A stretch of 64,000 nt of DNA from Collimonas arenae. GTDB taxonomy: Bacteria; Pseudomonadota; Gammaproteobacteria; Burkholderiales; Burkholderiaceae_D. The stretch covers positions 1,550,001 to 1,614,000 of the forward strand of contig NZ_CP009962.1 in the NCBI RefSeq assembly GCF_000786695.1, read 5' to 3'. Below the pieces are notes generated by a model. The model ran no database searches, had not been told where the DNA came from, and worked only from the letters and a program-made list of their open reading frames with translations. The position numbers and the translations under genes were made by a program. The stretch's first letter is position 1. Each line of letters starts with the position of its first letter. Shown here piece by piece: positions 6,529-20,364 of the stretch.

Positions 6529-7287
6529 TTATCTGTCGCATTGCAGGTAACCATTGATATTGCTAAAACTGCGGCTTGCGCAGGAAGATACCGAAACTGA
6601 TGACTGCACTCTGCGGTTGTTGTTGCCGCCACAGCTGGCCGCCAATATACCGCCTCGCAGGCTGATATCGCTACAGGACTGCAAGTAACTCCCCGGCGGC
6701 AAATCTCTGCCATCACGCCCGCTTTCACCGCCAGCGCATTGCAGGTTGCCGTTGATGTTTTCAAAATTCCCACTCTTGCACGAATTTAGGGAGATCGACG
6801 TGCGTCTGCCGTTGCCGCCGCCGCATGTGGCTTCCAGCACATCTCGGCTGACAATAATATTGCCACAGGATTGACGGTAACTGCCGGGAGGCAAATCTCT
6901 GCTGTTGCGATCGCTGTCACGCCTGCCTCCGCTGCCGGAGCATTGCAGGTTGCCGTTGATGTTTTCAAAATTCCCGCTCCTGCATGAATACAAGGAGATC
7001 GATGTGCGCCTGCCATTGCCGCCGCCGCATGTCGCCTCCAGCACACCCCGGCTGACAACAATATTGCTGCAGGATTGGCGGTAACTGCCGGGCGGCACCC
7101 AACTGTCGTCGCGGTAACCATCACCATTTGAGGGCGCATAGTTAAAACCACCACCGTATGCAGGTGCGGGAGAATAGCCGTAGTTACCCCCGCCATAAGA
7201 TTGGCTATAGCTACTGTTATAAGGACCGGCTGCACAAGCCGTCAGCGCAGTGCACACGATTGCCGCGAAGGCAGATTTGATTGTCAT
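6529..7287 (-). CDS. Lipoprotein with three cyanovirin-N homology (CVNH) repeats
   Basis: From the ATG at 7287, preceded by AGGAA, the protein has 252 residues. The signal peptide ends in the lipobox LTAC with Cys18. A Gly/Tyr/Ser-rich linker (about 20-60) leads to three tandem CVNH domains at about residues 65-116, 133-184 and 197-250. Each begins PPGSYxQSC, has an ATCGGGNGRRTS-type core and ends with INGxLQC. Four cysteines per repeat would form the usual disulfides. CVNH domains bind carbohydrate in characterised members; here a surface or periplasmic glycan-binding role is inferred. A longer open frame reaches 7344, but its first codons encode a non-signal stretch without a ribosome binding site. 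Repeats 1 and 2 are much closer to each other than to repeat 3, implying a recent internal duplication. Confidence 0.85.
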   Translation of the reverse strand: MTIKSAFAAIVCTALTACAAGPYNSSYSQSYGGGNYGYSPAPAYGGGFNYAPSNGDGYRDDSWVPPGSYRQSCSNIVVSRGVLEATCGGGNGRRTSISLYSCRSGNFENINGNLQCSGSGGRRDSDRNSRDLPPGSYRQSCGNIIVSRDVLEATCGGGNGRRTSISLNSCKSGNFENINGNLQCAGGESGRDGRDLPPGSYLQSCSDISLRGGILAASCGGNNNRRVQSSVSVSSCASRSFSNINGYLQCDR

Positions 7288-7609
7288 TTCATTCCTATTT
7301 AACAAAAAATAATGCTTTTCATCTTGCTTATCATATTCAATCAAATAACCGTCTTAGCTCCATCAGAGCTCGGATACCTGCTATTGAAAATGAAGAAAAT
7401 GAACATTTCCGGGGCTCCGACGCTGACCCGAGACACGTAGCCATGTCCCGATGATGATCAGAAATCCCCTCATAGTTTAATTATAGATAACAAAACACTA
7501 TTTATATATATGTCCGTCGGTGCCAGTACTACAGATGCGGCAAGAGAGAATCGCGAATCAGCGCCTGATTGATCGCACTAAAACTCTGCAAAGGCCCGGC
7601 TGGATGCCG
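7288..7609. other. Intergenic region without a gene
   Basis: AT-rich spacer between two minus-strand genes. It should hold the promoter of the CVNH gene. Its distal end (about 7548-7610) carries a degenerate copy of the terminator-containing stretch found at 6468-6530. No coding potential was seen. Confidence 0.5.
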
Positions 7610-7910
7610 TCACTGTTTTAAGTAAGCAGGAATATAAGCAGGAATATGATGAGCACATTCATCCAGCGCCTCATCACTATCGGCCGTTACCCCAAAGCGA
7701 TACTTGCAGTAATCAACAAGTGATTTTCTATCTATCGTCGAAAGGTCAGAGATATCCGGACTGTCACCCTCGCTAGCAAAGGGATCGACAAACTCCACCT
7801 GAAAGGCGGGAAATTTCTTGATGAAAAATGTAGTTTGCTGCTCGTCATCCAGATACGAGCGTACATATCCTACAAACAACCCGGCAATCAACAGCACGAA
7901 GATAAAAGCG

Positions 7911-7920
7911 GCGAGGTAGA
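7911..7920. repeat. Target site duplication, left copy (GCGAGGTAGA)
   Basis: Ten-base direct repeat next to the left terminal inverted repeat; identical to 8045-8054. Confidence 0.8.
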
Positions 7921-8044
7921 TTAATGCCGTTCAGTTAAGGAGAGTTTTGTTCGAAATGATGAATTAAATCGCCTCGAAACAAAGGAAAAAGGCCGCTCCA
8001 AATCGTTTCGGAGTGGCCTTTTTTGCCTTAACTGAACGGCATTA
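7921..8044. mobile_element. 124-bp MITE-like element with 19-bp perfect terminal inverted repeats
   Basis: The left end TAATGCCGTTCAGTTAAGG (7922-7940) is the exact reverse complement of the right end CCTTAACTGAACGGCATTA (8026-8044). A 10-bp direct duplication flanks the element. It encodes no protein. It contains a GGCCGCTCC/GGAGTGGCC hairpin (7991-8018) followed by six T residues, preceded by A residues, so it probably terminates transcription in both directions. A non-autonomous element mobilised in trans by a transposase elsewhere is the likely explanation. The 9-12 bp duplication size would fit an IS4-like donor, but that is a guess. Confidence 0.8.
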
Positions 8045-8054
8045 GCGAGGTAGA
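8045..8054. repeat. Target site duplication, right copy (GCGAGGTAGA)
   Basis: Identical to 7911-7920. The two copies bracket the inverted-repeat element and identify it as a transposition product. Confidence 0.8.
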
Positions 8055-8170
8055 CGATTTTTTTATTGAATGTTTTTCGCATCAAATTTGTTGGCTCTGT
8101 CATGGTGCTGTAAGACCACCCGCAGCACGAGCTTTTTTGACGAAAGATAGAGCAGCATTATTCACCCAAT

Positions 8171-8184
8171 GCGTCATTGCAAGA
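8171..8184 (+). repeat. Dispersed 14-mer GCGTCATTGCAAGA
   Basis: One of four matches in this window to GYGTCATYGCAAGA; the others are at 12444, 17896 (inverted) and 17978. It lies in the gene-free 8104-8343 gap. Confidence 0.5.
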
Positions 8185-8343
8185 GCAGACCCCGGCTTCG
8201 CGTTTCGGGAAATATCAGGGCAGTTCATCCAGCCAGAGCATTCGCCAAAACCTCCATCAAATGAAGGTTCGCCGGGGAGCTCGGAGTCTGGTCTTGCTAG
8301 ACCTTGTTCCTGCTTCCCAGCTTCCATGGCAATCAAAATTTCT

Positions 8344-9240
8344 TTATTTCCCGATTCCGATCATCGTCGCGGTATTGGCGCCGGTGGTGGTGGTCGGAAG
8401 TTTTCCATCCCATTTTTCAATCCAACGTGATTGGTTTTTAATCTGAGCCGCCTCTGACCCGTAGCGTTTCATGGCTTCCCCGACGACCTCCAGCGAGCGT
8501 GCATCCCCCTCGGCTTCGGCAATTTTGGCGTCTGCCTTGCCCTTCGCAATGGCGACGGCGTTGGCTGCATCAGCCTGGTTCTTGCGCAACAAAGCTTCGG
8601 ACTGCAATGCCTCTTGCGTTGCCTGAATCTTGGCATTGATCGCGTTTTGGATATTGGTCGGCAACCGGAGTTCATTGATGAAACCGAACTGCTCAGCCAG
8701 CACGCCGTAAGGCCCGAGTTCGTGGTTTATTTCAGTGCGCACCTGTTCCGCCAATTTGATCTTGCCGCCGGAGAGCAGGCCCTCGGCATCATAAGCAGAG
8801 CCGTAAGCGTTCAGGGAATTTCGGATGGCGTTGCGGATGATTTGCGAGGTGATTTCCTCATAGCCTCGTTTGTATTTTTGATACAGCGCCGGCGCTTTGC
8901 TTGGGTCAATACCGTAGGAGATGCTCACATCCGCATTGATCACCACGCCAGAAGCCACCTGAAAATTCACTGACTCATTTTCAGCGCGACCCTCGGTCAT
9001 GGATTTTGTCCACGCATAGGTTTGCGTGAAGGTAGGGAAGTCCACGACCGTGGTGCCGAATCCAATCAGATGCCAGCCACTGGGCAGCGGTATCGGCTCT
9101 ACACGGCCATCAACCCTGCTGAATTCCACGCCGACGTGGTTGGCTGGAACGGAAGCGATGAATGTATGAGACAGCATACTCATCAAAATCAGAACGCCGA
9201 TGATGATGGCGATCCACTTACGGAATGAAGTACCTTGCAT
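8344..9240 (-). CDS. SPFH/band-7 (prohibitin-like) membrane protein
   Basis: With the ATG at 9240 the product has 298 residues. An N-terminal anchor helix lies at about residues 10-32, followed by an SPFH domain from about 35 to 210 (VPANHVGVEFSRVDG at its start). An alanine- and lysine-rich coiled coil follows at about 215-265 (AIAKGKADAKIAEAEGDARS), the usual layout of bacterial prohibitin/stomatin relatives. Such proteins oligomerise at the inner membrane and often scaffold proteases or membrane microdomains; the specific role here is unknown. A longer open frame to 9315 adds an unlikely Pro/His-rich leader. It stands alone, with no NfeD-type partner next to it. Confidence 0.85.
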   Translation of the reverse strand: MQGTSFRKWIAIIIGVLILMSMLSHTFIASVPANHVGVEFSRVDGRVEPIPLPSGWHLIGFGTTVVDFPTFTQTYAWTKSMTEGRAENESVNFQVASGVVINADVSISYGIDPSKAPALYQKYKRGYEEITSQIIRNAIRNSLNAYGSAYDAEGLLSGGKIKLAEQVRTEINHELGPYGVLAEQFGFINELRLPTNIQNAINAKIQATQEALQSEALLRKNQADAANAVAIAKGKADAKIAEAEGDARSLEVVGEAMKRYGSEAAQIKNQSRWIEKWDGKLPTTTTGANTATMIGIGK

Positions 9241-9565
9241 ATTCTTATTATCCCTGCGCCAGTGCCCGGCGTGCGGCGGACTCGGATGAATCCGTGCTGG
9301 AATTGTAAGTGACAAATGCTTTTCGGGAATTTATTTGCTTTGATCTTGATATGGGTAACTTGAACCCAGGACCCCAGTGATCTTGGCCATCAAGCGCAAT
9401 CATGGTGAGAGGATTTACGATTATTGCAATTGAAGCTCTATTGCATAAAGGATATTTATTGTATATTGGCAATGAATTGGCGACGATATGCCGTTGTACC
9501 CGCTTCAGCGGTGCAGGCAACTTCAACGTTCTTGGAGTACAGCTTATTACCGTAGGATGTAGAGA
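9241..9565. other. Intergenic region between divergent genes
   Basis: Promoter space for the SPFH gene (leftward) and the membrane protein gene at 9566 (rightward). AT-rich around 9415-9480. No gene, RNA or clear repeat was seen. Confidence 0.4.
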
Positions 9566-10276
9566 ATGGGCAATTTCATCGAGGTCGTCGGCACGCACAA
9601 TCCGTGGCTCATCATTGTCGCGTTAATCGTCATTATCGTTCCCATTCTTAAAAACTGGGCCGATATGAGAACCGGTTCGCACACGGTCAAGAAAGACCGG
9701 CAAGCAGCCTTGTTTGCCGCGATGAATAACTATCTCATTTCCGCGCCGGGATATGCGCCGGAATTCTTGAACTATCAACTTGAGCAGACGTTTGACTTCT
9801 ATTACAAGAAGCGGCTGGTGCATCATGAAATAAGAAAACTGGTGTCCGCAACGGACCCAAGCGACTCGATCCGGGAATATCTGCAAACCAAGCCGTTTCT
9901 CAAATTGGAGATAAAAAATGGCGTACCGGGGAAATTCCGTTTTCGGGAAAAACAAAAAAGATATCGTTTAAAAATTCTTCGCTGGAAGCTCACGTTTTAT
10001 AAAACAAGATGGCGCCTTCTCGTGTTCTATTTTTTTTCAGCGCTTTTCGGATCGCTTTTGTTGATAGCCTTGACGTCTTTTGCTGACCATAACAAAGATT
10101 TTCTGAGTTGGGCATTTGTATTGCTTTTCGTCTTGGGTAGTTGCTCCGTGCTAGCTGCTTTTGTGTTCTTGTTGCTAGAAGAAAGATTTGGTTCAGCCAG
10201 GCAGTTTTTGATCAGGAAATCTCCGCCTTCGTTGAAGACGCTAAGTCTCCCGATGTTCGACAGGGTCACAGGGTAA
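9566..10276 (+). CDS. Membrane protein of unknown function
   Basis: 236 residues with a likely N-terminal helix at 14-30 (LIIVALIVIIVPIL) and two helices near 150-172 and 180-205, with a basic, probably cytoplasmic domain between. No family motif was recognised. It starts at an ATG after GTAGAG and lies 72 bases upstream of the DUF4236 gene in the same direction, so the two may be co-transcribed. Codon use is AT-richer than the housekeeping genes of the window, as for its neighbour. Confidence 0.6.
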   Translation: MGNFIEVVGTHNPWLIIVALIVIIVPILKNWADMRTGSHTVKKDRQAALFAAMNNYLISAPGYAPEFLNYQLEQTFDFYYKKRLVHHEIRKLVSATDPSDSIREYLQTKPFLKLEIKNGVPGKFRFREKQKRYRLKILRWKLTFYKTRWRLLVFYFFSALFGSLLLIALTSFADHNKDFLSWAFVLLFVLGSCSVLAAFVFLLLEERFGSARQFLIRKSPPSLKTLSLPMFDRVTG

Positions 10277-10348
10277 TGGGTCGCAGCGGCAGGAAAATTT
10301 CGAATCGACGGCAATCTCTCTAGGAAACAAAAATAAAGGAGACGGGAT

Positions 10349-12106
10349 ATGGGCTGGAGCTTCAGGAGAACAATAAAAATTGCACCCGGCGTGCGGATAA
10401 ATTTGAGCAAAAGCGGCGTGAGTACCTCAATTGGCGGAAAGGGGTTTACCTACAATACCCGAGGACGTCTCACCACAAGCATTCCTGGAACTGGGATTCA
10501 CTATACCCAGAATCTGAAGGCTCGCAGAACGGCAACGCCGATTCGCTCTGCAGTTGAGGCCAGCGGCCGTATTGATTCTGCAGGCACAGAACGACTCTCA
10601 AAGCGGGAACAGGCAACGCGCGATTTTGTGATGCTGTTACAAGATCGAACGACAAAGGCGCTCCGTCATTATTTCATTTCGCACGGCGTCTATGTCCTCG
10701 CTGAAGATCTCGCGGTCGCCGTAACACTTGAAGATCATCAGGAGTTTCTTGAGACCCTTAACCGGGAATTCGGGATAACTACCAAGGCAATTAAGCTCGC
10801 CGTAGATATCGGCTCGATATCGCTGGCCGAAAAAGAAAAAGCGATATCGGCACTTTATACGATAGAGGAGAGGTGCGCAGATCATCAAGGCGAGCGTGGT
10901 GCATTAAAGGAAGCCGCAACTTCGTTGCGGAACACAGTGCTGGCATGGCCAAGAGCACCAAATTTCATCGGGCCATTTTTGGTTAGTCTTCTCGGTTGCA
11001 TATTTATTTCACTGAGGTATTTCAGCATGGGATTGATTCTGGTGGCGGGTTCTGCCTTGTACGGCTTCTACGTGCTGAAATATTTCGAAAAAGTGAAGAT
11101 TTCAGTGTCGGAGGAGATTGCAGACGAAAATGCCAAGTTTGATGCATTGGTCACGAACGAAATTTCGCCTCGCCCGGCTGTGCCGAATTCTAAGGAGAAT
11201 CCCCTTGGTATGGCATTGATGTATACGGGAATCACACTGATGCTTGCATTGGTTGCAGTCCTCTATCAACCGCAAAACACTGAACGTACGGAGGTAGCTT
11301 CGGCAGAAAATTTGCCTCCGGTTGAGAGGGAATCGCAAAACGGGGGAAGTCCCACGTCGCAGGCTTCGATATCTACTACCGCGAATTCTTCACAGCCTCA
11401 TCAATCACAGGTCGATTTCAGTTGGCTGATTGGAAAATATCCTCAGGACGTGATTAATGATCGTCGATTCAGACACGCGTTTAATAATGTTTCACCGAAT
11501 GAATGGCGAAAGATTGCTGATCGCCTTGTGGTCACCAATGCGGCTGGAATTCAATCAATGGACGGGTACTACTTTGGTACCGGTTGCAAGGCACATTTTT
11601 GTGGCACGGATGACGCGGCTTTTGCAATTAATGCAGCAACAGGGAAGGGCGATCTGATCTATAAGGAAACAAACGATTACAAGGCGGTTGCCAACAGGTT
11701 CGCGTGGAGCGACATGCCAATTACCTCGACTCCCTTGGCCGCTTGGGCCAGGTCAAATGGTATGGAAATTAATACTGCCGAAGCATTTGTATCGGACGCG
11801 ATTTCTCATCCCACGTTCCAGACCAGCTTTAATTGTGCCAAAGCACGCTCCGATGCTGAACAACTGATCTGTGGTGATCAAGAACTGGCGGCGGACGACA
11901 TTGAGCTGGCGGGTGCGTTTGCCAAAGCAAAGGCTGCAGCCGTTGACCAGGTTGCTTTCAAAGAACGCAGCCGGAAGGAATGGAATTATCGTGAAAAGAA
12001 TTGTCATGACAGGGACTGCCTTATCAGCTGGTACGCTGTTCAGAAGGCCGCGCTTAGGCAAATAGCTGAGACTGGGAATGTCGCAGAAAACTATCCGGCT
12101 AATTAA
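10349..12106 (+). CDS. DUF4236 membrane protein with C-terminal LprI-like domain
   Basis: A 585-residue protein with three parts. Residues 1-55 are a clear DUF4236 domain (MGWSFRRTIKIAPGVRIN, STSIGGKGFTYN, SIPGTGIHYT). The middle contains three hydrophobic segments near 210-245 and 290-310 and a Ser/Thr/Gln-rich linker near 325-350. The last 80 or so residues carry a lysozyme-inhibitor LprI-like (DUF1311) pattern: FNCAKARSDAEQLICGDQEL, then further cysteines (NCHDRDC). LprI-type domains are normally periplasmic, so the tail probably faces the periplasm. An AGGAGACGG ribosome binding site precedes the ATG. A cell-envelope role is inferred. Confidence 0.75.
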   Translation: MGWSFRRTIKIAPGVRINLSKSGVSTSIGGKGFTYNTRGRLTTSIPGTGIHYTQNLKARRTATPIRSAVEASGRIDSAGTERLSKREQATRDFVMLLQDRTTKALRHYFISHGVYVLAEDLAVAVTLEDHQEFLETLNREFGITTKAIKLAVDIGSISLAEKEKAISALYTIEERCADHQGERGALKEAATSLRNTVLAWPRAPNFIGPFLVSLLGCIFISLRYFSMGLILVAGSALYGFYVLKYFEKVKISVSEEIADENAKFDALVTNEISPRPAVPNSKENPLGMALMYTGITLMLALVAVLYQPQNTERTEVASAENLPPVERESQNGGSPTSQASISTTANSSQPHQSQVDFSWLIGKYPQDVINDRRFRHAFNNVSPNEWRKIADRLVVTNAAGIQSMDGYYFGTGCKAHFCGTDDAAFAINAATGKGDLIYKETNDYKAVANRFAWSDMPITSTPLAAWARSNGMEINTAEAFVSDAISHPTFQTSFNCAKARSDAEQLICGDQELAADDIELAGAFAKAKAAAVDQVAFKERSRKEWNYREKNCHDRDCLISWYAVQKAALRQIAETGNVAENYPAN

Positions 12107-12543
12107 AAAAGTTCGGCGGAAGGCTTGGCATGATGTAAATGGAGATACGAATCTGTGACATATTTTCGGGGTTGATTTTCAAAAATATGCTATTACAAGA
12201 TTTGATCCCAGCACCTCCTTGTCGATCCGTCGCTGATTCAGCCTAACACTAGATGAGGGGTCTATAGTGTGATCCGAACATTGATCATTTCTGCCACAGT
12301 CCGAGCTACTCTCTTCGGTCTGCATCGTGACCTTCAATCTCGGTAACGCTGTGGAGCTTTACTTATCGTGGCTCGATAGCAGGAGTAGCCCCTGGTCTGC
12401 CAGTGTGTTCGAGGAAATCTGTGTCATATTTTATATTGAGGGTGTGTCATTGCAAGACTAGGCACTGGACTCCTTATCTTACGGCTTCATTCATGGCTTT
12501 ACTATTTCTGTCTGGAAAACTGAGTTTAATGCTAATATTTGAA
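12107..12543. other. Gene-free flank upstream of the retron, with short direct repeats
   Basis: No coding frame is evident. AATCTGTGACATATTTT at 12150-12166 and AATCTGTGTCATATTTT at 12416-12432 form a 17-bp direct repeat with one mismatch, bracketing about 250 bp. Small hairpins occur at 12246-12270 (ACACTA/TAGTGT) and 12364-12378 (TATCG/CGATA). A dispersed 14-mer is at 12444-12457. The composition suggests relics of inserted DNA at the edge of the retron island. Confidence 0.45.
12444..12457 (+). repeat. Dispersed 14-mer GTGTCATTGCAAGA
   Basis: Second copy of the four-copy motif, about 100 bases before the candidate retron RNA. Confidence 0.5.
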
Positions 12544-12703
12544 CGGTGAAGTGAGGGTTCCCAATTGACCGGTGCTGTGTTCCTGCGGCATTTTTACTAG
12601 GTTGATGCTTGCCTAGCTATATATATACTTAACTTTCCCTGATGATATCTATCTGGTACCTATAACGGTAAAGTAGAATTGAAATACGGCCCTTGCTTCA
12701 CAC
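12544..12703 (+). ncRNA. Candidate retron msr-msd RNA (template for msDNA)
   Basis: Bases 12546-12559 (GTGAAGTGAGGGTT) and 12688-12701 (GGCCCTTGCTTCAC) can pair over 14 consecutive positions in RNA, counting four G-U pairs. They would form the a1/a2 stem that closes retron RNAs. The pair encloses about 130 nt and ends six bases before the reverse transcriptase ATG, the standard place. Inside are a CTAGG/CCTAG hairpin with a 10-nt loop (12597-12616), suited to msr, and an ACTTTCC/GGTAAAGT stem (12632-12638 with 12667-12674), suited to msd. The msr/msd boundary and branching G cannot be fixed by eye. Confidence 0.6.
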
Positions 12704-12706
12704 ACT

Positions 12707-14320
12707 ATGCTGATTACCTTAAGCGCTTTGACACCTCCCAACTTTCTGGATTTGAAGTCCTTCTCAGATCTTGCTTTATTCTTTGGTATTCCTTCGAATA
12801 AGCTTGGGTATCTTCTTTATGCTTTGCAAGATAGCGACAAATATAAGTCGTTCAATGTCCCCAAAAAAACTGGCGGAACAAGGCAGATTTCTGAGCCTCA
12901 TCCGCTTCTTAAAAAAATTCAAAGGAAATTGGCCGATTCCTTGCTTGAACTATACAAGCCAAAGCAAAGTGTGCATGGTTATCTAAAGGATAAAAGTATT
13001 GTTTCGAACGCAAAAATGCATTTGCGAAAACGTTATCTTTTAAATTTTGACTTAGCAGATTTTTTCACAAGCATAAATTTTGGCCGTGTTCGCGGTCTAT
13101 TTCTTAATCATCCGTTTAATTTTCCTCAAGAGGTCGCAACGGCGCTGGCTAGGATTTCTACAAAAGAAAATAGTTTGCCACAAGGAGCGCCGTCGTCACC
13201 TGTTATTTCTAATTTTATGTGCTGGGGGTTGGATAACTATTTGCGAAAATTTTGCTATCAGCTCGGGTGTACATATACAAGATACGCAGACGACATATCT
13301 ATTTCTACTAATCGGGAGAATTTTCCAACTGAAATAGCTAATGTAAAACACGATCCATACAGTGCGGTTATTAGCGAAATTTTGACAACCAAAATTGAGC
13401 AAAATGGTTTTACGATTAATAATGCCAAGACGCGTTTTAGCACTCCCAGACAGTCTCAAGTTGTCACGGGGCTTAAAGTAAATGAATTTGCTAACGTATC
13501 AAGAAAGTATGTTCGTAATTTACGAGCAATGCTTCATGCGTGGGAAAAATTTGGTCTCGATAAAGCGGAGAGCGAATTCAGGGAAAAATACGTTTCGAAA
13601 CATCGAGCGCCCTTTCTTCCGCCAGTTTCTTTTAAGCAGGTTCTTCATGGAAAGCTAACTTTTCTACGCTCTGTCAGAGGTCCAAACGATGATATTTATC
13701 AAAAATTGCTTGGTCGATATTCGCTGGTTGCAGATCTAAGAAGATTAACTAAATTTGGGTTTCCAAAGCAAATTAACAGAGCACTTTGGATTTTGGAGTC
13801 TGATCTTTTCGAGGATGATTACTATCAAGGTACTGGATTTTGTCTTGACGGAATTGGTATTGTCACTTGTGCTCACGTTCTTAAGCCGGGAACTAAAGCA
13901 CGTAGGATTTATAATCATTTAGAGTCCTTAAATATTGAAATAGTGGAGCGAAATGACGCTCTCGATTACGCCATAATAAAAGTCATTGGTGGCGTCGAAG
14001 AAGTATCTTTAATAGCAGACTTGGATTTTAACCATCAGTTAGGTGGGCAGGTGAGGACTATTGGTTTCCCCGCTCATGACGGAACTGCCTCGGTGGCCTA
14101 CGAAGATGGTGTAATAGTTCAATCGCGATACAATGCAGCAGGACAAAAATGGTTTCGAGTGAATACAAATATTGTCGCAGGAAGTAGTGGTGGGCCTGTT
14201 CTTAATAGCGAGATGAAGGTGATAGGAATTGTCGCTTATGGCGCAACAAATCTTTCCGGCGGTGGTGATCCAATCAACAGCGGCTATATTCCAATTCAGT
14301 GCTTAAATGGTCCTGCTTAG
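12707..14320 (+). CDS. Retron reverse transcriptase fused to a trypsin-like serine protease
   Basis: This 537-residue protein has two halves. Residues 1 to about 340 are a retron-type reverse transcriptase. It has motif A FDLADFF (Asp115), LPQGAPSSP at 157-165 and the YADD catalytic box at 193-196. Both retron hallmarks are present: NAKMH (NAxxH, 101-105) and VTG (253-255). Residues about 355-537 are a trypsin-like protease with a complete triad: His390 in TCAHVL, Asp420 in ALDYAII and Ser494 in GSSGGPV. Retrons are anti-phage systems in which RT, msDNA and an effector form a guarded complex; the protease is the presumed effector, released on infection. No separate effector gene adjoins it. 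The gene is clearly AT-richer than its surroundings, suggesting recent acquisition. Fusion identity is firm; defence function is inferred. Confidence 0.9.
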   Translation: MLITLSALTPPNFLDLKSFSDLALFFGIPSNKLGYLLYALQDSDKYKSFNVPKKTGGTRQISEPHPLLKKIQRKLADSLLELYKPKQSVHGYLKDKSIVSNAKMHLRKRYLLNFDLADFFTSINFGRVRGLFLNHPFNFPQEVATALARISTKENSLPQGAPSSPVISNFMCWGLDNYLRKFCYQLGCTYTRYADDISISTNRENFPTEIANVKHDPYSAVISEILTTKIEQNGFTINNAKTRFSTPRQSQVVTGLKVNEFANVSRKYVRNLRAMLHAWEKFGLDKAESEFREKYVSKHRAPFLPPVSFKQVLHGKLTFLRSVRGPNDDIYQKLLGRYSLVADLRRLTKFGFPKQINRALWILESDLFEDDYYQGTGFCLDGIGIVTCAHVLKPGTKARRIYNHLESLNIEIVERNDALDYAIIKVIGGVEEVSLIADLDFNHQLGGQVRTIGFPAHDGTASVAYEDGVIVQSRYNAAGQKWFRVNTNIVAGSSGGPVLNSEMKVIGIVAYGATNLSGGGDPINSGYIPIQCLNGPA

Positions 14321-14470
14321 AGTCTTACTTAGCGTTTTTTTGAGGATACGTCATACGACTTCCCCTTACAAAAATTGATAGCGGAACGTGGCGATACCCA
14401 GTCTCTAAGTCGCATTCAAATCACCTAGCACCGAAAATTTAGCTGAATTTCATGTGTTAGCTCTATGGAT

Positions 14471-14782
14471 TTATCCGGACTGATTGCTATACATATCTCC
14501 AATGATCATTAGTACACGCTTTTTTTCCGACTGTTTAAGGCGATGAAATGTCATTAGCAATCTAGCTAGATCATCATCCGCAGTATAGAAATATGCCGCG
14601 GGTACATTCAAAACAGAGGCAAGCCGCTCGACCATAGTGAGATCAGGCACGTGCTTCCCACGCTCATACTGATTCATCCTGGCGCTGGCAGACATCTCAT
14701 CAATCCCCGCAAGTACGCCCAGTCGTTCCTGAGACAAGCCAGCCTCTAATCGAGCTTCTTTAAGCCTTTTCGCAAGTGACAT
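14471..14782 (-). CDS. XRE-family repressor
   Basis: 103 residues with an N-terminal helix-turn-helix (SLAKRLKEARLEAGLSQERL, then MNQYERGKHVPDL) followed by a short helical tail that may dimerise. This is the layout of small Cro/CI-like regulators. The gene is transcribed away from the SDR gene at 14879. Two palindromes sharing the half-site ACTAAG lie between them and are the likely operators, so autoregulation plus control of the SDR gene is inferred. It could be a remnant of a mobile island, since the retron ends 150 bases away. Confidence 0.85.
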   Translation of the reverse strand: MSLAKRLKEARLEAGLSQERLGVLAGIDEMSASARMNQYERGKHVPDLTMVERLASVLNVPAAYFYTADDDLARLLMTFHRLKQSEKKRVLMIIGDMYSNQSG

Positions 14783-14790
14783 AGTTACCC

Positions 14791-14817
14791 CAAAAACTAA
14801 GATATTCTTAGTTTTTG
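14791..14817. promoter_or_regulatory. Operator-like palindrome O1
   Basis: A perfect 12-bp inverted repeat CAAAAACTAAGA/TCTTAGTTTTTG around TAT, 9 bases upstream of the XRE start codon; probably the repressor binding site. Confidence 0.75.
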
Positions 14818-14828
14818 ATTGGTGCTAC

Positions 14829-14845
14829 ACTAAGGAATGCTTAGT
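14829..14845. promoter_or_regulatory. Operator-like palindrome O2
   Basis: ACTAAG-GAATG-CTTAGT repeats the core half-site of O1, 34 bases upstream of the SDR start. Two sites of shared half-site between divergent genes suggest joint control. Confidence 0.65.
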
Positions 14846-14878
14846 ATTTGATTGTGTACATTCCGGACCTGAAGCCCC

Positions 14879-15661
14879 ATGAGCCAACTCAACGCCTACT
14901 TCTCCCTCAAAAACAAAGTCGCCCTGGTCACCGGCGCCGCACGCGGCATCGCGCTCCACATCGCCTGTGCGCTCTCCACCGCCGGCGCCCGGCTGGCGAT
15001 CCTGGACGTGCGCGAGCAGGAGGGGCAGGTTGTCGCCTGGCTGCTTGGCAGCGCGCAGGGCCGGGCCAGGTTCTGGTCGCTTGATGTCAGCGACCGCAAA
15101 GCGGTGCAACAAGTGATGGCGGCAGTGGAGGGCCATTTCGGTCGTATCGATATTCTGGTCAACAGCGCCGGCATCGATGCCGACAATCCGTCAGCGCAGG
15201 GGCTCTCGCTGGCGCAGTGGGAGAAGGCTATGTCGGCCAACGTCAACGGCAGCATCTTGTGCTCCAAGCATGTGATCGCGGCGATGGAGCGGGCCGGTGG
15301 CGGTTCTATCGTCAATGTACTGTCTTTGTGCGCGCTGGAGGATGAGCGGCATGAAGCGGCTGACCATGCCGCGAAGGCGGCGCTGCGGATGGCCAACATG
15401 AATGCGATGCGCTATGCGGCGCGCAATATCCGCGTCAATACGATTCATCCGGGCTTTTCACGGCCACCGGCGCAGGTGGAGGCTTTGCGCAAGCAGGGCG
15501 ACCTGACGCAGAGGTTGGTTGATCTGGCGGAAGTACAGATGTTGACGGGCCGGGGTTCAGCGACGGATGTGGCGGCGGGGATTCTGTATCTGGCGTCGGA
15601 TGCGAGCCGGTTTGTCAGCGGGACGGAGCTGGTGATTGAGGCGGGCTACGGCTGTCGCTGA
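14879..15661 (+). CDS. SDR-family protein lacking the catalytic tyrosine
   Basis: 260 residues with the classical short-chain dehydrogenase fold: cofactor loop TGAARGIA at 18-25, LDV near 68-70, NSAG at 95-98, Ser149, Lys166 and the PG motif at 191-192. Two key positions deviate. The third glycine of TGxxxGxG is Ala25, and the Tyr of YxxxK is Asp162 (DHAAK; the codon is GAC where TAC is expected). Without the Tyr the standard hydride-transfer chemistry should fail, so the protein may bind nucleotide without acting as a dehydrogenase. It is divergent from the XRE gene with two operator-like sites between. Substrate unknown. Confidence 0.8.
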   Translation: MSQLNAYFSLKNKVALVTGAARGIALHIACALSTAGARLAILDVREQEGQVVAWLLGSAQGRARFWSLDVSDRKAVQQVMAAVEGHFGRIDILVNSAGIDADNPSAQGLSLAQWEKAMSANVNGSILCSKHVIAAMERAGGGSIVNVLSLCALEDERHEAADHAAKAALRMANMNAMRYAARNIRVNTIHPGFSRPPAQVEALRKQGDLTQRLVDLAEVQMLTGRGSATDVAAGILYLASDASRFVSGTELVIEAGYGCR

Positions 15662-15756
15662 CAGTCACAGTGGCGTCCTTTACCTAACGCTTTCCGATAA
15701 CAGATTTCATGCGACTGATTTCAGCTTTCTGCCTCTGTTGCAGATGGCAAGTGAAA

Positions 15757-15810
15757 GACATTAAAGCGGCAAAACGCCTTGCAGCAACGTGGAGCGAAGA
15801 AAATGCCTGA
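15757..15810 (+). pseudogene. C-terminal remnant of a HigB/RelE-like toxin gene
   Basis: The frame encodes DIKAAKRLAATWSEENA and stops at 15808, overlapping the start of the antitoxin reading frame by 8 bases. Toxins of the HI1419 type end with a similar DIKxAxxLAxxW sequence directly before their antitoxin. The upstream part of the toxin gene is missing or frameshifted (SDR stop at 15661). Confidence 0.55.
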
Positions 15811-16108
15811 AAAACTGACTGGCTACGATCCTGCAGAAGATTTGTCTTCAGGCGAAGCAATGGCTGCTTTCATGACCGCCGCTTTTGAAACGGGCGATGC
15901 CGCATACATTGCGCACGCACTTGGTGTTGTGGCGCGTGCCAAGGGTATGGCGTAAATTGCAGTTGAAACCGGACTGTCACGGGAGCAACTTTACCGCTCT
16001 TTCAGCGAGAACGGCAATCTGACTCTAAAAAACACGCTCGCCGTAATGAAAACATTAGGCATCGAGCTGACGACAACTCCGCGTCGGCTAACGCTTAAAA
16101 CGGATTGA
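15803..16108 (+). pseudogene. HI1420/HigA-like antitoxin gene with a premature stop
   Basis: The 101-codon frame starts MPEKLTGYDPAEDLSSGE and continues to LTLKTD. It matches addiction-module antidote proteins with a C-terminal helix-turn-helix (ALGVVARAKGMA, then IAVETGLSREQLYRSFSENG). Codon 51 is TAA (15953-15955) where family members have CAA for the Gln of the recognition helix, so a single C-to-T change truncated it before the DNA-binding part. With only a toxin tail left upstream, the module is dead. Confidence 0.75.
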
Positions 16109-16418
16109 TGTCGGACTTATTTACCCATATTGCCGCCAAGATGATGATCCTGAAAATAATCGTTTTCTCCGTTGTTTAGCGCAAGATAGAAACACTTTCT
16201 TGCGTTGGCGTGTTTGGATAAATGTTGTTTCCTGTTGTGTCCATATCTCGTGAAATCATGCAGGCCGTTGTAGTGTTTGCTAGTCTCCATAGCCATAGCT
16301 TATATCTCGCCTAAACAGAAGCCGCTCAGATATCACGTCTGCCGCAGGGCAATGAAAGCCAGAACAAAACCAGGTTCCGGCTATCTAATCTTTTGCAAGT
16401 TCGGCAGAGGAGCAGAAA
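16109..16418. other. Intergenic region upstream of the pilin gene
   Basis: No gene. A modest CGCAAGA/TCTTGCG hairpin lies at 16180-16204, possibly the terminator of the decayed module. The rest is probably pilin promoter and leader. Confidence 0.35.
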
Positions 16419-16847
16419 ATGAAAAATGTATATCCTGCGATGCAAAGAGGTTTCACCGTGATTGAACTGATGATCGTCGTGGCGCTCATTGGCATATTGG
16501 CGGCAGTGGCAATCCCGGCCTATCAAAATCACCTGAAGAAAGAAAAATTTGCGGAAGTGACCGCAGCGGCTATGGCGCTCAAGCCGGTAGTTGAAAGCTG
16601 CGCACAGCATACGGGTGGCCTGGCCGCTTGCGATGGCGGCGCCAACGGCATTCCTGCCGACCGCACTGGAGATGCAGGAAAATATATCGCCTCGCTGAGC
16701 GTCAAGGGCGGCGTCATCAAGGCCGTTCCGCAAGAAAAGGACGGCATTCTCGCAACGGATACCTACGTGCTGACGCCAGTCGCCGGAACGCCGTTGCAAT
16801 GGTCAAGTGCCGGCAGCGGTTGTGTTGCTACAACCCTCTGCAGGTAA
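16419..16847 (+). CDS. Type IV major-pilin-like prepilin (PilA/PilE type)
   Basis: 142 residues. The prepilin peptidase site RG/FTVIELMIVV lies after residue 11, with the conserved Glu at position 5 of the mature protein. The hydrophobic assembly helix LIGILAAVAIPAYQ follows. The globular part has four cysteines able to pair (SCAQH...LAAC and GCVATTLC). No other pilus gene is adjacent, so it is an orphan pilin using machinery encoded elsewhere. The start follows AGAGGAGCAG, a strong ribosome binding site. Confidence 0.85.
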   Translation: MKNVYPAMQRGFTVIELMIVVALIGILAAVAIPAYQNHLKKEKFAEVTAAAMALKPVVESCAQHTGGLAACDGGANGIPADRTGDAGKYIASLSVKGGVIKAVPQEKDGILATDTYVLTPVAGTPLQWSSAGSGCVATTLCR

Positions 16848-16884
16848 TCAGCCCAGGGCATTGTTTTAGCATTGAGAGGACAGC

Positions 16885-17106
16885 ATGTACGGTAGCGTTG
16901 ATTGGAAGCATGCGCCGAAAGGCGCGCGATGGTGGGCGATGGATGGCAGCGGACACGCTCATTGGTTCATGGAGCCGCATATAAAATCCCGGGCGCATTT
17001 CTGGTATACGCAAGAACTCCATGCGCCGACGTTTGGCTATATGGGGGACTGGCAAGAGAGCTTGACTGAGCGGCAGCCAGACGAAGCCGGTCCGGCGGCT
17101 GGCTGA
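16885..17106 (+). CDS. Small Trp-rich protein of unknown function
   Basis: 73 residues beginning MYGSVDWKHAPKGARWWAMD, preceded by GAGAGGACAGC 38 bases after the pilin stop. The DWxxAPxGAxxW pattern resembles short phage-associated proteins of unknown function. No signal peptide or membrane helix. Possibly co-transcribed with the pilin gene. Moderately likely to be real. Confidence 0.45.
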   Translation: MYGSVDWKHAPKGARWWAMDGSGHAHWFMEPHIKSRAHFWYTQELHAPTFGYMGDWQESLTERQPDEAGPAAG

Positions 17107-17193
17107 TACTTCTGAGAGCGGCTCCACACCGGCTTGCGATTAATGTGAGGATACATAGAACGAAGCATCGCGATGCCTCGGCTATTTGTTCGC

Positions 17194-17643
17194 TTACAAC
17201 GTTTCACCCGGTGTTTTCTTCCCGTGAATAAATGTTACTTTGGCGATTTTTCCATCCTGAACTTCATAAATTGCAATCGCCTCCATGACACCCGGTCCTT
17301 CGGGCAGCGTGACGCGAACGCGCTCATGGTCGATGACGGTATTTCCCATCACAATGCGCTTGACGACGACGCCATGCAAAATCGTATCGCTGAACCGTAC
17401 CGCATAGCTCTTGCGCATTTCCTCCTTGCCCTTTCTTGAGGGAGTGTTCGGAAATCCAAAAAGCTCGGCGTTGTCCGCATAGGTGGCAAGGAAGGCATCC
17501 ATATCGCGCGCATTGTAGGCATCGAACTGCTTCTGGACGATCTCCTCGGCAGAGTTTGTCTCGACAGCCGATGCGGATTCAGACATAGGCAAAGCGCGGA
17601 AAAACAATGGGGCGCAGATGACTGATTTGAATATATCTTTCAT
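17194..17643 (-). CDS. SnoaL/NTF2-like protein
   Basis: 149 residues with a SnoaL-like alpha+beta barrel pattern: AEEIVQKQFDAYNARDMDAF, then ATYADNAELFGFP and an AIYEVQDGKIAKVTFI ending. This superfamily includes small isomerases, hydrolases and ligand-binding proteins. The start at 17643 gives an odd 20-residue leader; an alternative start at 17586 (MSESAS) would begin just before the domain. The specific substrate cannot be inferred. Confidence 0.75.
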   Translation of the reverse strand: MKDIFKSVICAPLFFRALPMSESASAVETNSAEEIVQKQFDAYNARDMDAFLATYADNAELFGFPNTPSRKGKEEMRKSYAVRFSDTILHGVVVKRIVMGNTVIDHERVRVTLPEGPGVMEAIAIYEVQDGKIAKVTFIHGKKTPGETL

Positions 17644-17895
17644 GCCGTATTCTTTCTTTAGCTAAGTTAACTATCAACATGGGCTTTGTTGTCGCCAGCC
17701 TGTAGGCCTTGAGGAGATGATTAAATCGCGGCCCGCCCGGGAATTCGATGAACAGTACGCAACTCATCGCGTGGGGCCAGGAGGTTTTACCACGATGGTT
17801 TATCAGGGCAGGGCGGGAAAGCGCCTGGATTCTAAATAACCTAAATCTGATTGATATATCGAGGCCAGGCGCAAAGCAGAAAGTTCTAGACCTGG

Positions 17896-17991
17896 TCTTG
17901 CAATGACACATTGCCGCATTGAAGGTGCTGATCTTCCTTCGTTTTTGTCAGCCCAATGCAACGTCGTTTCATTGGATGTGTCATCGCAAGA
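17896..17991. repeat. Inverted pair of the dispersed 14-mer (REPIN-like)
   Basis: TCTTGCAATGACAC at 17896-17909 faces GTGTCATCGCAAGA at 17978-17991 (one mismatch in the inverted pair). A nested CCAATG/CATTGG pair lies at about 17953-17974. The arrangement resembles a paired REP sequence. The rest of the 17644-18015 gap shows no gene. Confidence 0.5.
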
Positions 17992-18015
17992 TCCGGCTCT
18001 TCCATCAAGGGAAAT

Positions 18016-18651
18016 TCAGTTCTTCGTTGCCGTCGCAATCAGCCGCAAGCCGAACAGGATCATCACGCCGCCGGCAACGCGGTCGATCCAGCTTTTGTAG
18101 CGCAAGTAGGCGTCGCGCGGGGAGGCCGAGGAAAGCAATAGCGCAACAATGCTGTACCAGCCTGTTTCAATACAGAAAACGACGATCAGCAGGGCAAGGT
18201 TGAGCCAGGCCGGGAAGGCCGGGGGCAGAAGCGAAGCAAAAATACTGGCGTAGAAAATGGATGTCTTCGGATTGCTCAATTGAGTAACCAATCCGAGCAT
18301 GAACGATTTTTTTAATGTCGGCATTGCCTCTTGTCCGAAATTCGCCCCCAGCATCAACGGCGATTTGGCGCCTTTCCAGATGCGATACCCGAGGTAGGCC
18401 AGATATGCTCCGCCTCCGATTTTTAATGCGAGATAGAGCCAAGGCACGGAAGCCAGCAGCGCCTGCAACCCCAATAGCGCTGCGGTGGCAAACATGATGC
18501 CGCCGGTTCCCATGCCAAGCGCGGCTGCCAGGCCATGCGATCGGGTCGACGCCACGGCAGTCTTGGCGACCATGACGAAGCTGGGGCCGGGGCTCATCGC
18601 GCCGATGGCGATGGCGCTGCCGATACTGAAAACGGTAATCGCTGTATTCAT
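18016..18651 (-). CDS. LysE/RhtB-family amino acid exporter
   Basis: From the ATG at 18651, which has AAAGG upstream, the protein has 211 residues and about six membrane helices. It carries the family signatures GAMSPGPSFVMVAKTA near the N-terminus and GLVTQLSNPKTSIFYASIF in the middle. Members export amino acids or derivatives by proton exchange at the inner membrane. The longer frame to 18693 adds a polar leader and is less likely. Confidence 0.85.
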   Translation of the reverse strand: MNTAITVFSIGSAIAIGAMSPGPSFVMVAKTAVASTRSHGLAAALGMGTGGIMFATAALLGLQALLASVPWLYLALKIGGGAYLAYLGYRIWKGAKSPLMLGANFGQEAMPTLKKSFMLGLVTQLSNPKTSIFYASIFASLLPPAFPAWLNLALLIVVFCIETGWYSIVALLLSSASPRDAYLRYKSWIDRVAGGVMILFGLRLIATATKN

Positions 18652-18926
18652 GATGACCTTTCGCGTTACTCGGTTAGCCTTTGTGGCATGCATTTCCTCT
18701 GAAAATGCTCCTGTTGCATTGGGCAGACGGCCAACGCAAGACGCTACCCGTCATACCTTAGCGTAGCTGCCAAGCCTTGATCAAGGGATATCTAGTCTAG
18801 TGCAACGCCGCCATCAATGCCGCGCAGCCGTCAGTCTGCAAAGCGAGTTCTCGCGGGAACGCTTTGACTCAGCCTTTACAAGCACTGGGGGAGGGGGATT
18901 GGATGAAAAATCTGAAGGCAAAAGAA

Positions 18927-18954
18927 AAGGGGTCACATTTGCATGTGACCCCTT
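18927..18954 (-). terminator. Rho-independent terminator after tRNA-Asn
   Basis: A 12-bp perfect stem AAGGGGTCACAT/ATGTGACCCCTT with a 4-nt loop, followed on the minus strand by TTTTCTTTT, lies eight bases past the tRNA 3' end. Confidence 0.8.
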
Positions 18955-18961
18955 AGAATCT

Positions 18962-19037
18962 TGGCTCCCCGACCTGGACTCGAACCAGGGACCTGCGGAT
19001 TAACAGTCCGTCGCTCTACCAACTGAGCTATCAGGGA
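18962..19037 (-). tRNA. tRNA-Asn (anticodon GTT)
   Basis: The minus strand folds as a standard cloverleaf. The 7-bp acceptor is TCCCTGA/TCGGGGA (with one G-U pair), the D-arm is AGCTCAGTTGGTAGAGC, the anticodon loop is CTGTTAA and the T-arm has GGTTCGAGTCC. The terminal CCA is encoded. The GTT anticodon reads asparagine codons. Confidence 0.95.
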
Positions 19038-19146
19038 ATTGAAAGAAGCAGAATTATAGTCTTGAATTTGCTGTGGTGTCAAAGCTTTTTCTAAACTTTT
19101 CTACATCTCCCGATGCAAGTGTTGCTACTGCATCGGGACCCGAATA

Positions 19147-20364
19147 TTACAGGACTTTTGCGATTGCGGCGACAACATTATCAATATTTTTTGAATTCAG
19201 CGCGGCAACACAGATACGGCCTGTGTCTACGGCGTAAATCGAGAACTCGTCGCGCAGGCGGTCGACTTGTGCCTTGGTCAAACCCGAGTAAGAAAACATG
19301 CCGCGTTGCTTGGTGACGAAATCGAAGTCGTGGCCTGGCGCCTGTTCTTTCAGTTTCTTAACCAGCAGGTGGCGCATTTCGCGGATGCGCACGCGCATGC
19401 CGGCCAGTTCTTCTTCCCACAATGCGCGCAGTTCCGGCGACGACAGGGCGGTGGCGACTACCTGGCCGCCGTGGATTGGCGGGTTGGAGTAGTTGGTGCG
19501 CACCACGCGCTTGAGTTGCGACAGTACGCGGCCGGCTTCTTCCTTGCTGGCGGCGACGATGCTCAGTGCGCCTACGCGCTCGCCGTACAGCGAGAACGAT
19601 TTCGAGAACGAGTTGGAAACGAACAGCGGGCCGCCTGCTTCTGTGAAGCGGCGCACTACCTGGCCGTCGGCTTCGATGCCGTCGCCAAAGCCTTGGTAGG
19701 CCATGTCGAGGAACGGCACCAGGCCGCGCTGGATGACGACTTCGATGACCTGGGTCCATTCGGCGTCGCTCAGGTCGGCGCCGGTCGGGTTGTGGCAGCA
19801 GGCGTGGAGGACGACCACGGAGCCGCTTGGCATGCTCTTGAGCGCATTGAGCATGCCGCTGAAGTTGACGCCGCGGGTAGCAGGGTCGTAGTACGGATAG
19901 TTGTTGACGGTGAAGCCGGCCGATTCAAACAGTGCGCGGTGGTTTTCCCAGCTTGGATCGCTGATCCAGACTTGCGCATCGGCGGTGGCGAAGCGCTTGA
20001 GGAAATCGGCGCCCAGTTTCAGCGCGCCGGTGCCGCCGATGGATTGCACGGTGATCGCACGCTTCTCTTGCACTACGGCGCTGTCGGCGCCAAATACCAG
20101 TTCTTGCACTGCCTTGTCGTAAGCGGCCAGGCCTTCGATCGGCAGATAGGTGCGTGGCGACAGTTTTGCAATCAGTTGCGCTTCCGCTTTTTGCACGCAC
20201 TCCAGCAGCGGCACCTTGCCGTTATCATCGTAATAAACGCCGACGCCGAGGTTGGTTTTGCCTGGATTTTGATCCGCATTGAAGCCTTCTGTAATACCGA
20301 GGATAGGATCGCGTGGCGCCATTTCGATGGCGGTGAAGAGGGAGGCTGAAAGAGGTGCGTTCAT
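19147..20364 (-). CDS. tyrB: Aromatic-amino-acid / aspartate aminotransferase
   Basis: 405 residues from the ATG at 20364. A class I PLP aminotransferase with the pyridoxal lysine in SNSFSKSFSLYGERVG, the HNPTG motif in CCHNPTGADL, and LGVGVYYDDNGKVP at the N-terminus as in the AspC/TyrB subfamily. It transfers the amino group of aspartate, tyrosine or phenylalanine to 2-oxoglutarate. TyrB versus AspC cannot be decided with certainty. It is divergent from uvrB. Confidence 0.85.
   Translation of the reverse strand: MNAPLSASLFTAIEMAPRDPILGITEGFNADQNPGKTNLGVGVYYDDNGKVPLLECVQKAEAQLIAKLSPRTYLPIEGLAAYDKAVQELVFGADSAVVQEKRAITVQSIGGTGALKLGADFLKRFATADAQVWISDPSWENHRALFESAGFTVNNYPYYDPATRGVNFSGMLNALKSMPSGSVVVLHACCHNPTGADLSDAEWTQVIEVVIQRGLVPFLDMAYQGFGDGIEADGQVVRRFTEAGGPLFVSNSFSKSFSLYGERVGALSIVAASKEEAGRVLSQLKRVVRTNYSNPPIHGGQVVATALSSPELRALWEEELAGMRVRIREMRHLLVKKLKEQAPGHDFDFVTKQRGMFSYSGLTKAQVDRLRDEFSIYAVDTGRICVAALNSKNIDNVVAAIAKVL

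Follow-up and report, generated by a model that had tools for sequence, protein, structure and literature searches.

A predicted type XI retron of Collimonas arenae: a reverse transcriptase fused to a trypsin-like protease, and its candidate noncoding RNA

What does a protease do at the end of a retron reverse transcriptase (RT)? The question is raised by a 537-residue protein encoded in a 64,000-nucleotide stretch of the Collimonas arenae genome (contig NZ_CP009962.1, positions 1,550,001 to 1,614,000; hereafter the window), which an initial annotation, made from the letters of the DNA, had read as a retron RT joined to a trypsin-like protease acting as the likely effector of an anti-phage module. 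The follow-up analysis supports the assignment of this element to the type XI retrons, a class already catalogued in PADLOC, in a copy that looks complete and has a predicted noncoding RNA (ncRNA) directly upstream of the gene. What is new here is the location of the ncRNA for this retron, not the class. The type labels XI, I-C and XII are those of the PADLOC model names. The features are collected in Table 1.

Table 1. Positions of the retron features in the window
Feature	Position	Strand	Basis or remark
a1 arm, predicted ncRNA	12546..12559	+	complementary to 12688-12701
msr stem-loop GGTGCTG-TGTTCCTG-CGGCATT	12571..12592	+	motif recurs across loci; prediction
inferred msd (template) region, approximate borders	12593..12687	+	position between msr hairpin and a2 only
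a2 arm, predicted ncRNA	12688..12701	+	complementary to a1; 5 nt ahead of the RT ATG
RT-protease fusion gene	12707..14320	+	open reading frame list; PADLOC RT-Protease_XI match; 537 aa
retron RT domain, residues 15-340	12749..13726	+	NAxxH 101-105, YADD 193-196, VTG 253-255
HtrA/Deg-type trypsin-like protease domain, residues 347-537	13745..14317	+	Pfam and structure comparison
His390 catalytic codon	13874..13876	+	sequence, aligned relatives
Asp420 catalytic codon	13964..13966	+	sequence, aligned relatives
Ser494 catalytic codon, motif GSSGGP	14186..14188	+	sequence, aligned relatives

The fusion protein, its class and its likely effector

The fusion was confirmed as a single open reading frame (ORF) whose product matched both RVT_1 (residues 51-256) and Trypsin_2 (residues 375-508) above the Pfam cut-offs. 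The three RT motifs lie exactly where the initial annotation had placed them, and the positions that it gave for the catalytic triad were also right; the triad is intact in the window protein, and 141 of the 144 sequences aligned have all three residues. By structure comparison the protease domain has the fold of HtrA stress proteases, from which it differs in being fused to an RT and in having no PDZ domain detected by the Pfam scan of the protein. The predicted structure of the fusion shows a drop in the predicted local distance difference test score (pLDDT) between the domains, where residues 341-350 reach only 65. This drop is consistent with a flexible linker and would suit a protease acting mainly on its own fusion or on the RT, to release parts or shut the RT off. 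Such self-processing was considered improbable, since the fusion is retained in relatives and the replacement of the protease by TIR, Toprim or nuclease domains, described below, requires no self-cleavage.

The class assignment was deduced from profile and structure comparisons. Two PADLOC RT-Protease_XI models were the best of 70 families (E values of 1e-161 and 3.4e-161) and spanned both domains (residues 12-531 and 13-533). PADLOC lists RT-Protease_XI as a "single gene" system with the same N-terminal RT and C-terminal trypsin-like protease, and no feature was found that separates the window copy from this class; the five closest relatives having both domains (P0002-P0006) are 60-68% identical to it. 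No NCBIfam model reached its cut-off for the protein, the RT-TIR model scoring 353.9 bits against 600 and the Ec67 model 334.8 bits against 450. The closest solved structures to the RT domain were retron RTs, with retron-Eco2 as the closest solved relative (37% RT identity). A group II intron origin of the RT found no support, as TIGR04416 gave just 42.9 bits where its cut-off is 300. Taken with the retron-type ncRNA predicted directly upstream, these matches support the retron identity proposed for the RT.

The fusion itself is already in print, since PMC12405507 names protease among the fused effectors: about 32.8% of 3395 retron or retron-like RTs carry a fused effector there, and Toprim, protease and TIR domains are given as examples. 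The RT-TIR retrons (type XII), named as a phage defence system in PMC10952713, have a related RT, the same fusion point and, in 11 of 18 loci, the msr hairpin motif described below, but their effector is a TIR domain and their RTs form a clade of their own. Retron-Eco2/Ec67 (RT-Toprim, type I-C) carries a Toprim RNase rather than a protease (PMC12405507).

The exchange of effectors was followed on a quick RT tree of 76 of the 115 distinct RT rows, with support from the Shimodaira-Hasegawa-like approximate likelihood ratio test only; effectors were labelled by hidden Markov model for the protease and by simple motifs for the others. The window RT groups with that of locus L005 (support 98), and the 34-row group around this pair (support 84) carries Toprim, an Mrr-type nuclease, protease or no fused effector. 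The RT-TIR rows form one separate group (support 97), and the remaining RT-protease rows lie outside the 34-row group at poorly resolved forks. The protease label changes six times on the tree, of which the starred branches force just one, and a single origin of the protease fusion is compatible with the tree.

When 257 neighbouring ORFs (at least 70 aa, no farther than 5.5 kb away) of 25 RT-protease loci, which include short contigs, were compared all against all, no family was found in three or more loci. A co-encoded substrate or partner is therefore not evident. Because other domains swap in at the same fusion point and no neighbour recurs, the protease itself was deduced to be the likely effector, as had been proposed. 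The Mrr-type nuclease of the 34-row group is that of Aliifodinibius salipaludis (L010:7941-9539), where a retron-type RT is fused to an Mrr-type restriction endonuclease domain (Mrr_cat 27.9 bits, cut-off 21), and no such fusion model was among the best 25 PADLOC families listed for it.

A predicted ncRNA upstream of the gene

Retron ncRNAs are recognized by paired a1 and a2 arms, an msr, an msd and a branching G in a usual order. The ncRNA predicted here extends over 156 nt (12546-12701), and its a1/a2 arms form 14 pairs, four of them G-U. A test that allowed gaps proved too lenient, the window score being reached in 22 of 60 shuffles, and a gapless test was used instead, in which none of 100 dinucleotide shuffles equalled the window stem. 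A first run of the gapless test gave p<0.05 in 11 of 23 RT-protease loci (Fisher 1.3e-8, the loci not all being independent). A second run with more controls found a significant stem in 13 of the 25 RT-protease loci, in 24 of 30 RT-Toprim loci (a set limited to its first 30 members) and in 14 of 17 RT-TIR loci. Of 82 control regions, taken from upstream of neighbouring ORFs in the RT-protease loci, only 2 were positive. Among the loci, L022/L025 and L029/L032 are near-identical pairs, the RT-TIR hairpin matches come mostly from one close clade, and L127 is a fragment with an in-frame stop whose upstream region is no true test. The significant arms vary in sequence among loci (the near-identical pairs aside) while their complementarity is kept. 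A MAFFT alignment of two whole ncRNAs was uninformative.

The second signature is a hairpin located after a1 and assigned to the msr, of the form N-N-N-[C/T]TG, a loop of 8-9 nt ending in TG, and CG[G/A]-N-N-N. It was noticed by eye in 17 loci, then sought in all groups and lastly scanned for by rule. Of the 25 RT-protease loci, 14 have it in place (15 if a match at -11 in L006 is counted), as do 11 of 18 RT-TIR loci and 1 of 13 other loci, and it is present in 4 of the 8 RT-protease loci outside the 17 seen initially. The background was 20 matches in 1,160,598 nt outside the tested stretches of these loci, or 0.0067 per 390-nt window. For the 18 distinct hairpins, the covariation score was 0.538 vs 0.224 in shuffles and the number of double-change cells 24 vs 9.1, with none of 500 shuffles as high in either. 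Two of the five pair measures failed to beat the shuffles: pairs with change on both sides (5 vs 4.0; 128 of 500 as high) and further pair types (8 vs 8.9; 451 of 500 as high). The scan requires pairing, which biases the paired percentage and the pair counts by selection, and 12 of the 18 hairpins lack pairing at the outermost position.

In the window, a2 stops 5 nt short of the ATG. Among the 11 loci whose stem was significant in the first gapless run, 7 (counting the window and two near-identical pairs) have a2 ending no more than 10 nt from the assigned start; start codons were assigned mechanically as the first ATG, GTG or TTG of the frame. Since a2 thus lies near the start codon, over the ribosome-binding region, ncRNA folding may bear on RT translation, and its folding or processing may affect the amount of RT-protease made. 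No Shine-Dalgarno-like motif precedes the window ATG, as might be expected of a decayed or inactive copy. The gene is, however, full length with its catalytic residues and a1/a2 intact, and just 7 of 25 RT-protease loci have a Shine-Dalgarno-like motif between -18 and -4 relative to their assigned start; decay was therefore judged the least probable of the explanations considered. A promoter scan gave 8 sites vs 6.1 expected in shuffles, and a terminator scan 1 vs 2.1; none of these sites was used. A TGCTAATAT box ending 7 nt before a1 was noticed by eye, outside the promoter scan, which needs a -35 box.

Proposed gating of the protease and its possible targets

The mechanism was modelled on retron-Eco2, whose fused-effector Toprim structure has been solved. 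As described in PMC12405507, the Eco2 RT-Toprim and its multicopy single-stranded DNA (msDNA) form a self-inhibitory trimer, and the Toprim domain alone is toxic whereas the full-length fusion is not. The model put forward by its authors has the Toprim site occluded by msDNA, with activation following from the likely degradation of this msDNA by phage DenB. Since the window RT is 37% identical to that of Eco2 and carries its effector at the same end, msDNA-gated proteolysis appears the most likely mechanism. A transcript starting at about 12546 would yield the 156-nt ncRNA with its ends paired through a1/a2, and the RT, by analogy with known retrons, would bind it and copy the stretch before a2 into msDNA. 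As in Eco2, RT, ncRNA and msDNA would together keep the C-terminal, presumably cytosolic HtrA-like protease inactive until damage to the msDNA, or a change in it, caused by a phage factor set the protease free. The freed protease could then cut host or phage proteins, so that infection would be halted along with the cell.

We consider it probable that this type XI retron has a protease gated by msDNA and ncRNA and freed upon phage infection. A more specific version is put forward tentatively, as somewhat less than an even prospect: msDNA and ncRNA would inhibit a cytosolic HtrA-like protease, phage damage to the msDNA would lead to the cutting of chosen host or phage proteins, and ncRNA folding may set the enzyme level.

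Several observations weigh against the main proposal. In the second a1/a2 run, 12 of the 25 RT-protease loci lacked a significant stem, and an msr hairpin in place is missing from 11 of the 25. The fold of the whole ncRNA beats shuffles only mildly (z -1.78; 11 of 200 as good), less so with added upstream sequence (z -0.74; 43 of 200), and the complementary DNA of the msd (12596-12690) folds no better than shuffles (z 0.08). No branching G was identified in the predicted ncRNA, and an Rfam scan of 11800-15200 gave no match at E<=1. The gating is, moreover, borrowed from Eco2, whose effector is of a different fold. To our knowledge, the window protein has been the subject of no msDNA, protease or phage assay.

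The main competing explanation concerns the target: the freed protease may activate one pro-effector encoded elsewhere in the genome, with no broad killing cleavage. The protease domain alone weakly matched the PADLOC models PDC-M35A (E 1e-7), HamA1 (7.6e-7) and LmuA (8.5e-7), the latter two within the first 175 model positions. Trypsin-like proteases are likewise fused to defence enzymes in the protease-nuclease pairs of Hachiman, AVAST, Lamassu and DRT, and in Hachiman and AVAST they have been demonstrated to activate a metallo-beta-lactamase (MBL) pro-nuclease (PMC12799240). In these pairs the protease is N-terminal and the nuclease gene lies immediately upstream, whereas here the protease is C-terminal (residues 347-537) and neither of the two ORFs upstream (10349-12106 and 9566-10276) matches MBL, the Pfam scan giving DUF4236 or nothing above cut-off. 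No neighbour recurs in RT-protease loci, and the cross-matches may stem from the common trypsin fold alone. A search of the whole genome for MBL proteins was uninformative, as the family also matched in all 14 controls. Activation of a single pro-effector was deemed unlikely, although less so than any of the other alternatives.

The gating proposal assumes a role in phage defence, and the distribution of the fusion bears on this. Of 399 genomes sampled from the order, only the one containing the window has the fusion at E<=1e-60. Full-length matches were obtained from 3 of the 369 class genomes sampled (its own, G434 with an internal stop, and G521), in 4 of 398 of the phylum (its own, G1073, G911 and G1033), and in order-level samples in 1 of 247, 2 of 150 (G1033 and G1381) and 2 of 199 (G911 and G1511). 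Matches whose source is named include Bryobacteraceae and Pyrinomonadaceae metagenome-assembled genomes, a Coriobacteriia metagenome-assembled genome (L006) and a Bacillus plasmid (L021). Among 176 matching plasmid records, 5 span at least 80% of the query. On viral contigs, a single-protein query gave no match; a query with alignment A1 gave 356 relatives, and of the best 80, which were retained, 10 loci carry the fusion. The gene is AT-rich, with 38-42% GC in 500-base windows over 12500-14249 vs 43-63% elsewhere in 7000-20000. The patchy spread, the plasmid and viral-contig copies and the AT-richness are the pattern of a mobile defence gene. The match of the protease fold to HtrA stress proteases would also suit a role in stress regulation or housekeeping rather than phage defence, but this pattern speaks against such a role, which seems about as improbable as self-processing. 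As a side observation, the RT-protease on a Phaeobacter plasmid (L022) has its protease truncated next to an IS3-family transposase gene.

Genomic surroundings and significance

The retron lies beside a repeated gene. The SDR gene downstream (14879-15661) has eight more copies in the genome, one of them partial, with proteins 87-99% identical and DNA similarity to the window ending at the gene boundaries. The copies covered were those of the window (14471-15661), L128 and L166-L172 in the same genome and L173-L176 in the same genus; one genome of the genus, G1620, gave 10 SDR matches. A small HTH_3 gene above the Pfam cut-off stands on the opposite strand just 5' of the SDR gene in five of the nine copies (window, L166, L168, L169 and L171), and at L128 HTH_3 is marginally under the cut-off. 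This divergent pair looks like a multiplying module of unassigned purpose. The window HTH gene (14471-14782) was rejected as a retron partner because HTH genes also accompany retron-free copies of the SDR gene.

Three of the nine SDR copies have defence genes on their 5' side: the RT-protease (window 12546-14320), an RT-Toprim I-C retron (L128:7133-8875) and, at L166:1975-6102, genes for a cytosine methylase, Vsr and an AIPR protein. In another genome (L174), inspection by eye alone suggested a methylase-like gene and others resembling defence genes. The SDR surroundings are possibly a defence hotspot. The genome holds three more RT defence systems, namely the RT-Toprim retron at L128, a type II-A retron (L129:4753-8473; RT with NDT_II-A, adjoining HEC-01 A/B genes) and Drt2 (L130:6538-7926). 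In the 600-nt gap before the window retron, a 17-nt direct repeat (94%) occurs at 12150-12166 and 12416-12432, with a spacing of 266 nt.

RT-protease retrons are mentioned in the open-licence PMC literature; work on their mechanism or substrate was not found in the portions of that literature searched, and other work may exist. With the protein complete and the ncRNA located in one 1.8-kb stretch, this retron makes a clean test case for the target of a retron protease.
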